DNA of 64,000 nt, from the NCBI GenBank assembly GCA_030272585.1, contig BSYQ01000004.1, positions 1,798,001 through 1,862,000 on the forward strand. The letters run 5' to 3'. The notes beneath the pieces were generated by a model. That model made no database searches and had not been told where the DNA came from. It saw only the letters and a list, made by a program, of their open reading frames with translations. Shown here one piece after another: positions 8,498-18,817 of this stretch (position 1 is the first letter of the stretch; each line of letters starts with the position of its first letter). Position numbers and translations under genes: made by a program. This stretch comes from Bryopsis sp. KO-2023 (taxonomy: Eukaryota; Chlorophyta; Ulvophyceae; Bryopsidales; Bryopsidaceae).

Positions 8498-11400
8498 ATG
8501 CGTCTGTTCTTGATATGGGCGCTTTTGTGCGTTTCAGCGCAAAGGGTTGTGTGTCGCGTTGCGTTAGGTGGGTCGGATGTTGTTGAATCTGGTGCGTCCT
8601 CATTTGCGGATGAAACTCGTTCCTGTTGGATCTGTGACGTCGAGTTTGCTAAAATTTGCAGGATCCTCACCTGGCGGAGATCGACAGGTGTGAATCTTGC
8701 GCTCCATCAGTCACACTTTTCGAACTCCTCGCATTGCATATTCAAGTTGGTATCATTGATTGATTGATTCAAGTTGGTCTGATATGCAACTATCATCCAT
8801 TGTCCACCACACGCCAGCATTTCAATTTTCTTATTTTTCTGTTGAATTGATAAGCTTATCTAACAACAATTTTACTAACAGTCGTTTTTAACCCCCCCCT
8901 GCCTCCCCCAAAAAAGAAAAATAAATCGAAGAATAGTAAAATAATGATAACCATCATGCAACGCGGAACATAGTCTGTCAAATAAAGCCTTTGATCCTCA
9001 GTTAATTTCTGGCTTGAGGTTCAACTCTGTTGTGTAGAATCAGGGTGATGAGGTTTCACTCGATCCTTCGCTTCGGAAGCTTCTACAAGACGTGCGCCCG
9101 CTCATTGCTGTGGGTACAAACAAAATCAGACACACAGACAATTCCATTTTTATTTTTATTTTCCAGTGCATATACCTAGGGGAGGGGTCCATGTATCACA
9201 TCGCCCATGATAGCAAATATGTGTGGGGTGGGGTTGAGACTTAGAAATTCGCCCTGATCTTCACAATGGTAATCTTGATTGAACACAATGATGTGAGACT
9301 CCACATTGGCATCCGCAGGGGGGTCAAGATGCTCCTAGAGGGCGGTTTCCTTATGCTTGCTCATTGAGATCGGCAGGTACCCGAAATCATCGTTGTGGAG
9401 GCACACTGATTGCTCCTGGGTGGGTCTTGACCGCAGCCCATTGCTTGGACGGAGAAGACTCCCTAGGGACCACATTTCTTGTGTATGTGGGTGCCCTCGA
9501 AATCGATGATGAGTCTGCAGAGGTACTCGAAATTTGTGCTTATTCACAAAAATGCGGGGGAAAAGGAGTCTTGGTTTATTCTTTTGTGTGAGGACATGTG
9601 TGAGTTTGCAGGTCATATGGGCAGCGCAGGTCATCATTCATGAGAGCTACACAACCGTTGAGAAGGGATTTGATATCGCCCTTGTGCGCCTCGAAAAGCC
9701 CTCCACAAAACCACCTCTGAGGATACCCACAAGTGAGACTGTCATAGGACCGGGCCAGCTTCTAGCCACCGCAGGGTTTGGCAAGATCAGCGAGCGTGCC
9801 CCGTTTCCTAAAATTCTTCAATTTGCTGACCAGCTGGAGTACGTCACCAACAAAAACTGCAAGCTGACAGTGCCCATTGAAGACAGTATGATTTGTGCAT
9901 ATTCTGCCTTGCAATCAGCATGCCAGGGTAATGGGTTGGAGCAGTCGTTCTAGAGAATTTTTATTTCCTGGGATATTTCTGTGTGAACTGCTCTTCCTTG
10001 GATGAATATATTCGGTTGATTGATCCAGGCGATTCTGGAGGGCCTTTGGTGATTCCTGACAGCAAGGGGGGGGTCAGCATCATTGAAGGGAATCCAGACT
10101 TCGATCTGCTGGTTGGCATTGTATCTTTTGGGCCAGCCACATGCGCATCAACGGCACCTGATGTGTACACCAGAGTCAGCAGCTTCCGGGAATGGATAGA
10201 TAAAAAAATGGGGAATGCTCCGTCTGACACCACCACTTCTCCGGCAAGCATCCCCGTTTCACCCCCTAAAACCACCACCTCTTCACCCCTTAAAACCACC
10301 ACCCCTTCGGTGAGTACAATCGTCTCAATTTGTGTCATTTGATATTTTGGACACCCCATTCCTAAAAAAGAAGAGGTCTTTTGGGATTAGCTTTTGCCAC
10401 TTTTGTTCTGTGTGTCTTTGGCTCCAAAAAGCTCGGGAAAAAAAAAAAAAAAAAAAGAACAGGAGGGAAAAAGAAAGGAAAATGACGTCTCTATTTTCTC
10501 TCCCAACTACGATCACTGATTGGCTCACAATATGTCTGCATTTAGCGAGGTTGCCCATCTTGCACCATTGCATTCACAATATTTGGCTTAATATTTTTTT
10601 CTCTCCCTCAAACAGGTTGTATGTCGGACGGACTGTGACAAACTGAATCAAGACCTCTTCGATGCTGCCGGTGCTGGGGACTTGGTCGAAGTGAAGGTAG
10701 CCTTTTTTTGTCAATGATTGCTGGTCTGCTGAAGCAAGACAAAAAATACCAAAAAATAACACTGGAAAGAACATGGCAGGGGCCAACCAGGTGTGCTTGT
10801 TGATTTTCAGGAGCTGATTTCCAAGGGTGCCGATTTGTCATTCATGGATTCCGAGATGACTCCATTGATGTTTGCTGCTCAGGAGGGCCGCGAGACAATG
10901 GTTGAATTTTTAATCGAAGCAGGTGATTGGCAGCATGATTTGAAGGTTTCAAAATAAAAGGGCACTGAAAGAATTTTTGTACATTGGCATGCGGAATTGA
11001 CATGCAACGTTTATCTGAAAGAGAATACAATCGCCTTGTTACTTATATCAATATTTGGCAATGAAAAACATGTTCAGTGGGGGGGGGGTTGTGAATTGCC
11101 ACATGCCAAAACGTACGACTTGAAAATTGTCCCGCCTGCAATCAATCTTTGTCCAAAGTTTGCTGCCAGTTTCTGAAGTTGGTGCATTCCGGATAGCAGT
11201 CAAAAGCCATAGAGTTTTTTTTGGAGAAAATCTGCAATCTCTGAGAATCTGTGGTCGTGGTGTGGGCGGGAGCATAGGCTGTTCAGTCAGCATGTCCAGT
11301 TGAAGGTCGAATCTTAAACACTTTTCTTTGATGAATTCTGCTCCAGGGTCCGATCCTGATGCAGAAAATGAGGATGGCATGAGTGCATTGTTTTTTGCTG

Positions 11401-17700: not shown

Positions 17701-18817
17701 TGAAATCCAATACTAATGCTACTCCTGCACGATTGCTGCTCCAGGGGCCGACATCGATGTTCAGGATATTGAAGGCTTTACCCCTTTGTTTCTTGTTGCA
17801 CAAAACGGTCACTTGGATGTCGCCAAAATCTTGCTCAATGCAGGTGAATTGAAACAGAGAAGCTTCATGTTCTGAGTGCAGGAACGGTATTCTCACCCCT
17901 GTGGCAAGCATTGTTCGCAAAGGACCGAATGGATTGAAGGGCGACATTGCTTTTGAAATAGGCACACACACACACACAATTGCAATTTGCCAAGTTTTTC
18001 TTTCATTTTGATTTCCAGGCAGAGTTTATTTTGGCATCGCTTTGCATTTGGCATGTGATTTCGTATCAGAAAGTTCTATATATATGTATTATGCCAGATC
18101 CATGTGTTAAATCAATTTTTAAACAATTTGTCAACAAATTTGTTGGCACACTTTGAGTGGGTCCACCACCAAGCTTCCGGTTGAAGCAGGTGAATTCGAC
18201 AGGGATGTCTACTATGGATGGATGCTGAATTTCAGAACTGCTGTTCGATATTTCAGGGGCAACTCTGGATTTGGGGTCAATCGACGGAGGTACTCCTTTG
18301 ATGGAAGCACTGTATCTGAACATGGTGGAGATGGTGGAGTTTCTCCTGAAATCAGGTGCCCTTGGGGGAAAAACATTCCACATCTGTTGAAAGTCCATGC
18401 CAATTTGATAGCATTCCACAGTCTTCTAGATTCCAGATACTTTTATGGAAATGAGAACGAGGTATTGTGTTTTGGTCTACAGGTGCCGACGTGACTGTTC
18501 GCGATAATGTGGAGAAAACGCCATTGCATTTGGCTGTTTATGGAAGCCCAGAGTTGATTCAATTGCTTTTGGACAATGGAGCTGAAATAGATGCCATGAA
18601 TGAGTTTGGGGAAACCCCCATCTTCAAGGCAGCTTATTCAGGAAATGGGGAAGCCATTGAAATTTTAAAAAAGGCTGGGGCTGATCTTAGTATCAAGGAC
18701 AGGGGTGGGGATACGATCGAAGATAAAGTCTGTGGGTGCTTGTTCGAAGATCCTGATTCCAGTTTTTTTTGTGAGACATGTGATGAACGGCGCGTCAAAG
18801 AAATTTTAAAACGTTGA
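14759..18817 (+). CDS. Copy B: secreted S1 protease with 6 ankyrin repeats and a C-terminal Cys motif
   Basis: Eleven exons: 14759-14828, 14927-14952, 15249-15314, 15523-15726, 15824-16142, 16244-16500, 16781-16861, 16972-17089, 17745-17843, 18257-18355, 18483-18817; 557 residues, all phases consistent. It is the closest paralogue of copy A, introns included. It lacks the two 99-nt ankyrin exons that copy A has at 11347 and 12209, so the repeat count is six rather than eight. Signal peptide [14 protein letters not shown]; triad TAAHC, FDIAL, GDSGGP; Ser at position 189 (SACQGDSGG); predicted mature start IAGGQDA after Leu. The final exon again ends in CGC...CETC. An alternative donor at 16458 would remove 14 linker residues without changing frame; the donor after 16500 (gtgagta) is stronger. 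Confidence 0.85.
17496..17520. repeat. TA microsatellite in an intron of copy B
   Basis: Alternating TA run; copy A has only a short version at the equivalent place (near 12395), so it expanded after duplication. Confidence 0.75.

Follow-up and report, generated by a model that had tools for sequence, protein, structure and literature searches.

Two genes, here called A and B, in a 64,000-nucleotide stretch of the green alga Bryopsis sp. KO-2023 (contig BSYQ01000004.1 of assembly GCA_030272585.1, positions 1,798,001 to 1,862,000 of the forward strand; "the window" below means this whole stretch) are predicted to encode a signal-peptide-like start, an S1 protease and an array of ankyrin repeats in one polypeptide, and these predicted genes are two intact members of a large family that has expanded in this alga. 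The union of S1 and ankyrin domains in a single gene, which an earlier note on this DNA had proposed, is strongly supported by the family-wide arrangement of the predicted exons, and we regard the secreted-type S1-ankyrin architecture read from the sequence as very nearly certain. As a rule, ankyrin repeats occur inside cells and S1 proteases are combined with domains of extracellular type.

Both genes were assembled by hand, and window coordinates are used throughout. Gene A occupies 8498-13721 (13 exons, 1893 nt including the stop, 630 amino acids) and gene B 14759-18817 (11 exons, 1680 nt including the stop, 559 amino acids); all introns are GT-AG and all phases close, so the earlier description of two complete, in-phase genes holds. 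The exons are as follows.

8498..8567, plus strand: gene A exon 1, signal peptide (predicted; gene model, hydropathy)
8662..8687, plus strand: gene A exon 2, 26-nt micro-exon (...GSSPGGDRQ; gene model)
9038..9109, plus strand: gene A exon 3, propeptide to RPL|IA (gene model)
9319..9522, plus strand: gene A exon 4, S1 domain, catalytic His (gene model, Pfam, domain alignment)
9612..9927, plus strand: gene A exon 5, S1 domain, catalytic Asp (gene model, domain alignment)
10029..10309, plus strand: gene A exon 6, S1 domain with GDSGGP, then Ser/Thr/Pro linker
10616..10696, plus strand: gene A exon 7, cap exon, without in-frame ATG, phase 0-0
10811..10922, plus strand: gene A exon 8, end of the cap repeat and first full ankyrin repeat
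11347..11445, plus strand: gene A exon 9, single ankyrin repeat, 99 nt, phase 1-1, without counterpart in B
12209..12307, plus strand: gene A exon 10, single ankyrin repeat, 99 nt, phase 1-1, without counterpart in B
12648..12746, plus strand: gene A exon 11, single ankyrin repeat
13159..13257, plus strand: gene A exon 12, single ankyrin repeat
13387..13721, plus strand: gene A exon 13, final two ankyrin repeats, four-Cys tail, stop
14759..14828, plus strand: gene B exon 1, signal peptide (predicted; gene model, hydropathy)
14927..14952, plus strand: gene B exon 2, 26-nt micro-exon
15243..15314, plus strand: gene B exon 3, propeptide, DNA identical to A at 72/72 positions
15523..15726, plus strand: gene B exon 4, S1 domain, His
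15824..16142, plus strand: gene B exon 5, S1 domain, Asp
16244..16500, plus strand: gene B exon 6, S1 domain with GDSGGP, linker
16781..16861, plus strand: gene B exon 7, cap exon, without in-frame ATG
16972..17089, plus strand: gene B exon 8, end of the cap repeat and first full ankyrin repeat
17745..17843, plus strand: gene B exon 9, single ankyrin repeat
18257..18355, plus strand: gene B exon 10, single ankyrin repeat
18483..18817, plus strand: gene B exon 11, final two ankyrin repeats, four-Cys tail, stop

The order of parts is the same in both: a signal-peptide-like start, the 26-nt micro-exon, a propeptide ending in RPL, an S1 domain starting with IAGG, the flexible linker, a cap exon carrying C-x3-C, ankyrin repeats and the four-Cys tail. 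The start was judged by hydropathy alone (top 10-residue Kyte-Doolittle mean 3.01, at residue 3), with a VSA|QR site picked by eye. Pfam Trypsin (PF00089) matches along its full profile (positions 1-220 of 220) at residues 55-286 of A (E 5.9e-43) and 55-287 of B (E 5.4e-43), and together with the His, Asp and Ser residues this confirms the intact S1 protease of the earlier note. The ankyrin halves match PF12796, PF00023 and PF13637 as tandem 33-residue repeats (Ank_2 E 5.8e-60 in A and 1.3e-38 in B). With the N-terminal cap repeat counted, A has 8 repeats and B has 6, as in the earlier note, and the linkers consist of Ser, Thr and Pro to 61% (A) and 53% (B). The propeptide and S1 block begins and finishes in phase 0. 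Single-repeat ankyrin exons are 99 nt long in phase 1-1, so their gain or loss would spare the frame, and exactly two of those in A lack a counterpart in B. Among solved structures the best matches are plasma kallikrein, chymotrypsin and tryptase for the S1 half and ankyrin-1/2 and designed ankyrin repeat proteins (DARPins) for the ankyrin half; modelling the last exon of A, with B its sole relative, gave a structure too poor for use (mean predicted local distance difference test score 46.6).

Four queries were run against the whole genome (91 Mb, 28 contigs): the profiles PF00089 and PF12796 and two exons of A, its final one and its last S1 exon; C4 denotes the window's own contig, and C14 and C24 are other contigs of the same genome. 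The last S1 exon of A has 106 matches, 71 on C4 and 35 on other contigs. A terminal ankyrin exon lies within 5 kb downstream on the same strand for 57 of the 71, on the opposite strand for 1 and nowhere near for 13 (among the ankyrin matches listed), and 1000 circular shifts gave a mean of 6.7 such pairs and a maximum of 16 (70 S1 exons in the shifted range). This pairing was counted for the S1 exons of C4 alone, against at least 103 matches to the terminal ankyrin exon. A terminal ankyrin exon also lies upstream of 21 of the 71 S1 exons, as expected from clustering. Counted by locus among the listed C4 matches, an ankyrin exon follows 44 of 55 S1 loci within 9 kb on the same strand; 1 locus has it on the opposite strand and 10 have none. 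The 200 kb of C4:1290001-1490000 contain 26 S1 chains, 20 of which reach the domain end; for 19 of the 20 a cap sequence comes next at E <= 0.004 (in one case a cap shared with the adjacent S1), and for 17 the terminal exon was located. A 26-nt micro-exon like those of A and B also lies ahead of the S1 genes that begin near 19614, 25003 and 42442; none was found ahead of the 20 S1 chains in C4:1.29-1.49 Mb. The predicted domain pair recurs across most of the family on C4.

A divergent paralogue at C4:1755151-1756620 has within 1.5 kb an S1 exon followed by a short Ser/Thr/Pro exon and then by one ankyrin exon ending in C-x-C-x7-C-x4-C (borders set by eye), and this one-exon ankyrin array at 1.755 Mb is a second gene structure with the same architecture. 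Around C4 863-899 kb, 1.647-1.677 Mb and 1.755 Mb, ankyrin matches stand in long open frames (280-334 amino acids, one of 514) near S1 exons. A second group of S1 matches occupies about 1.07-1.39 Mb of C14, with no terminal-ankyrin-exon match nearby among those listed.

Comparison of A with B gave a ratio of nonsynonymous to synonymous substitution (dN/dS) of 0.40 overall (556 codons), with 0.23 in S1, 0.59 in cap and ankyrin repeats, 0.75 in the short linker and 0.48 in the tail, the last resting on three differences only. Since this ratio is low and all differences in coding length are multiples of three, the open frames do not owe their existence to chance, and both halves of the two predicted proteins are under purifying selection. 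Past the stop, similarity drops to 48% in 400 bases, and the duplicated block seems to end there.

The protease half was surveyed in 28 S1 domains with more than 150 aligned positions, out of 36 chains. The His-Asp-Ser triad is intact in 23 of the 28, including A and B; of the five others, three lie in the window (His replaced by Ile; Asp by Asn; Asp by Gly, the Ser not being covered) and two have Ser replaced by Gly. Position 189 is always one of Gly, Ala, Ser and Thr and never Asp (28/28), and residue 226 is mostly Asp or Gly (Asp in 16 of 27 scored domains); A and B carry Ser189/Asp226, where the brachyurin pocket has Gly189/Asp226. These positions place the family nearer to the broad-specificity brachyurins than to trypsin. 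The site RPL|IAGG is found in both A and B (in the paralogues it falls at an exon border and is not reliably readable), and with Leu at P1, the residue ahead of the cut, trypsin is not the expected activator. Six cysteines, those of the three classical disulfides, are present in 26-28 of the 28 domains.

The C-terminal tail reads C-x-C-x10-C-x2-C exactly in A and B, as the earlier note had it, and its name "Cys finger" did not last: the usual tail elsewhere in the family is C-x-C-x(3-14)-C-x4-C, and "four-Cys tail" is the better name because the spacing varies. With a loop of 3 to 14 residues between the Cys pairs, disulfides fit better than a metal finger. Of 53 terminal exons (picked by matching the tail-bearing exon, thus not a free sample), 52 have the four-Cys pattern, 51 by regular expression and one more beyond the part scanned; in the remaining exon the first Cys is lost. 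Nine rows, L058, L059 and L067 among them, had been dropped before this count (seven with four Cys, one cut short and one equal to the out-of-frame window gene F described below), and row L069 stops ahead of the tail. The repeats themselves are free of Cys (0 of 2323 repeat residues and 0 of 4352 residues of the terminal ankyrin part, two overlapping sets), and two other ankyrin loci of the genome, the only two compared, hold 3 Cys in 182 residues. Cys-free repeats followed by a four-Cys tail support an oxidising compartment as a putative destination, with a small comparison set.

Variability in the ankyrin part was measured on 51 terminal exons (the 53 minus one short and one near-duplicate), partitioned into 13 variable repeat positions (those randomised in DARPin libraries), 60 framework codons and 44 tail codons; the first count of variable positions used a looser set, and the strict DARPin set was used afterwards. 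Omega (the dN/dS of each partition) was estimated by purpose-written likelihood code on a nucleotide tree with branch lengths scaled, not refitted. With a shared synonymous rate it was 1.64 for the variable positions, 0.38 for the framework and 0.73 for the tail, and omega = 1 was rejected for the variable set (twice the log-likelihood difference 41.8). The set of six positions per repeat gave 1.83, the other 32 registers gave 1.14 or less, and a fraction of 0.0002 of 10000 random position sets reached 1.83. Twenty independent pairs with pooled dS gave 1.59 (1.17-2.07; share of bootstraps at or below 1, 0.004), with 0.49 for the framework. Several points tell against a reading by selection for binding: omega falls to 1.01 when the variable partition has its own rate; the same 20 pairs without pooling gave 1.26 (0.78-2.22; share at or below 1, 0.17); repeat position 10 and the gap-rich tail loop, both outside the chosen set, are equally variable; and the chosen positions vary in ankyrin repeats generally. 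By method, the estimate for the variable positions spans 1.0-1.9 and that for the framework 0.38-0.49. Because of the own-rate estimate, the pair intervals and the fast sites outside the set, we claim only that the predicted binding-face positions are hypervariable, and the case for positive selection on them is at most moderate. Inside the repeats the fastest change falls on these positions, and the repeat framework, like the core of the protease, is conserved. This hypervariability lends the built-in recognition domain suggested by the earlier note indirect support.

The other relatives in the window (C to F) were identified as exon-level matches. A few of the limits come from a home-made gene finder, the models of which were not used as gene models because it recovered just 4-9 of the 24 exons of A and B in a control over 30 settings.

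19614..23890, plus strand: relative C, incomplete, with signal-peptide exon, propeptide, S1, linker, second S1 (Ile for His) and ankyrin-cap-like stretch (exon-level matches)
25003..26919, plus strand: relative D, incomplete, with signal-peptide exon, propeptide, S1 and a long Ser/Thr/Pro linker that may extend further (exon-level matches)
28161..28956, plus strand: fragment with signal-peptide-like exon, propeptide-like exon and partial ankyrin repeat, no S1 match (limits from the rejected gene finder)
37500..40837, plus strand: relative F, with signal-peptide-like exon, micro-exon, cap-like and ankyrin exons, no S1 match, tail out of frame relative to the other members
42442..48006, plus strand: relative E, with signal-peptide exon, propeptide, S1, second S1 (Asn for Asp) and fragments of ankyrin repeats and tail (start partly from the gene finder)
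48666..49425, plus strand: S1 fragment, Gly for Asp, last part not found (exon-level matches)

No ankyrin array was found in C (19614..23890), and no ankyrin in D ahead of the next gene start near 28161. Relative F is probably decayed, E probably so at its 3' end, and the window looks like birth-and-death turnover around two intact genes. S1-less variants were considered as functional designs and dropped, the tail of F being out of frame and one inspected cap junction out of phase. Neighbouring S1 pairs occur at window 19614-23890 and 42442-45560 and at C4:1352980-1355477; in the two window pairs the second S1, with His or Asp lost, looks like a built-in pseudoprotease. Partial S1 matches also lie on the minus strand at 35860-36766.

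Outside the family, a minus-strand open frame at 1052-1825 matches the Aquarius insert domain and an AAA helicase and is probably the intron-binding protein Aquarius, of which minus-strand frames at 3410-4708 may be part. A 425-amino-acid frame at 29416-30690 (minus strand) matches the pyruvate kinase barrel at E 4.4e-27 and contains about six tandem copies of a unit of about 31 residues (ARDDLGTKIPRLQKVPPPQTKKMATNT...). At E 0.01 Pfam gave no match for a frame of 1048 amino acids at 31169-34312 (minus strand) or for one of 345 at 52494-53528 (plus strand, with a Tyr/Glu-rich stretch). The 5' flank of gene A (7500-7950) holds a short repeated unit like gggggcgtatacacgg, seen by eye, and Rfam gave 0 matches in the window at gathering scores. 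Repeats of rDNA are found on C24, with 18S matches about 12.45 kb apart; the 18S rRNA gene (L015 915-2669) looks divergent.

The genome has 107 exon-level matches to light-harvesting genes, and the first 3 kb of one contig contain frames which we take to be green-type rbcL and the ATP-synthase alpha chain. The word effector in the earlier note, if meant as a parasite protein, is unsupported, since this genome belongs to a photosynthetic green alga. Passages of PMC3252328 describe membraneless protoplasts of Bryopsis that form in sea water, extruded protoplasm that keeps out alien particles, an incompatibility barrier in protoplast formation, specific endophytic bacteria kept by the alga and its use of a lectin bearing an antibiotic domain. 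A passage of PMC11852573 reports two Bryopsis mitochondrial genomes far larger than those of other genera.

The explanation that we tentatively put first, at somewhat less than even confidence, is that the family consists of aimed, diversified, extracytoplasmic zymogen proteases for defence or wounding. The protein would enter the secretory pathway and arrive outside the cell or in the vacuole, disulfides would hold the tail and cap, and a cut after Leu, ahead of IAGG, would release the active protease; as P1 is Leu and not Arg, that cut might be made by another family member. The ankyrin face would keep the protease on particular partner proteins. Its likeliest job would be an aimed-protease repertoire in the defence or wound response, where the contents of the siphonous cell meet sea water and bacteria. 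A more elaborate version, in which about fifty proteases, each with its own variable ankyrin face, form an extracytoplasmic recognition repertoire that tells self from foreign when the giant cell's protoplasm lies open to sea water during wound regeneration, diversified by clustered duplication and by phase-compatible gain and loss of single-repeat exons, seems unlikely to us. Also weighing against the explanation put first are the lack of N-glycosylation sequons in both A and B (secreted proteins can do without one, but this is unusual), the family copies that are decayed or miss one half, and the 13 S1 exons without an ankyrin partner.

Several other explanations have to be considered. That no fusion exists, and that a protease gene is simply followed by a separate ankyrin gene, is extremely improbable: in its favour, readthrough past the linker donor of A soon meets a stop (the open frame ends at 10342), and nucleotide identity between A and B, a further point against our reading, has overlapping ranges in exons (82-100%) and introns (80-93%), as after recent duplication, so that identity alone cannot mark the exons; but the 57 of 71 same-strand pairs, the phase 0 cap exon of A and B that lacks a start codon and recurs after 19 of 20 S1 chains, and the divergent paralogue, which keeps the order with few introns, all oppose it. 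A decaying cluster made up mostly of pseudogenes would account for the broken neighbours C, D, E and F and for the five S1 domains out of 28 in which the triad is incomplete (one not fully covered), yet A and B have open frames, splice phases that agree and dN/dS 0.40, and the triad is kept in 23 of 28 domains, which leaves this very improbable.

If the fusion is accepted, the ankyrin part might be a built-in regulator (an inhibitor or assembly scaffold) that binds its own or sister S1 domains in a proteolytic cascade. The domains usually travel together, trypsin is not expected to act on the Leu site of A and B, and in two window relatives there is a further S1 domain whose catalytic site is broken; a self-binding face should however be conserved, and the predicted one is hypervariable, so we consider this quite unlikely. 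Vacuolar or secreted digestive or housekeeping proteases, with the ankyrin array a mere tether (e.g., to a wall or vacuolar protein), are a doubtful alternative: the propeptide and catalytic triad are there, and the residues at 189 (Gly/Ala/Ser/Thr) and 226 (mostly Asp/Gly) suggest broad specificity, but the large clustered family, the variable predicted binding positions and the variable repeat numbers surpass the needs of digestion. The digestive role offered by the earlier note is disfavoured on the same ground, since a plain digestive enzyme needs neither a large family nor variable binding faces. Aimed proteases in cell-cell or gamete recognition, i.e., in mating or in the compatibility of fused protoplasm, would fit the diversified predicted face and the protoplast incompatibility barrier described in a passage of PMC3252328, but the number of genes seems high for mating, and we judge this decidedly unlikely.

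Among known systems, the S1A peptidases (PF00089) share with A and B the triad, GDSGGP, a propeptide ahead of the IAGG start and the six classical cysteines; the family differs from them in residue 189, which is never Asp in the 28 domains, in the Asp at 226 in 16 of 27, in the Leu before IAGG (A and B) and in the C-terminal ankyrin array. Prokaryotic secreted S1 proteases (the nearest in GTDB, e.g., those of Bdellovibrio) are 29-37% identical over S1 for the best 79 of 525 relatives, and a profile from the repeats of A and B found ankyrin at E 0.01 in none of these 79 loci with flanks of up to 3 kb on each side, which speaks against an origin from a bacterial S1-ankyrin gene. A search of viral contigs for S1 relatives, by patterns able to reach only close relatives, gave 88 pattern matches, of which none was confirmed. 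In NCBIfam and PADLOC the ankyrin half of A and B matches several ankyrin families and the S1 half weakly matches PADLOC LmuA (E 2.4e-8), and no family among the matches listed covers both halves. No report of an S1-ankyrin fusion was recognised in the titles and abstract starts of the papers listed, which did not cover the Bryopsis genome paper (10.1111/tpj.16764) that may include these genes.

Further parallels exist for single aspects of the architecture. Many family members have the acidic residue 226 and small residue 189 of brachyurins (crab collagenase), and the joining of an effector enzyme to a repeat domain with a variable binding face resembles NLR/STAND and other enzyme-plus-repeat immune proteins; A and B differ from these in their signal-peptide-like start and had no NACHT or NB-ARC Pfam match at E 0.001. 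To our knowledge brachyurins are without ankyrin repeats, and no S1 protease is known in latrotoxins. The latrotoxins (PDB 7ptx, 7pty and 9go9 among the ankyrin matches, which cover the repeats only) resemble the family in having an ankyrin array in a secreted protein. If our reading is true, the family would be a testable candidate for the way in which a siphonous alga controls foreign cells and wounds outside its cytoplasm, and this large set of signal-peptide S1-ankyrin proteins, with their Cys-free repeats and variable predicted binding positions, would be nature's equivalent of enzyme fusions with designed ankyrin binders.

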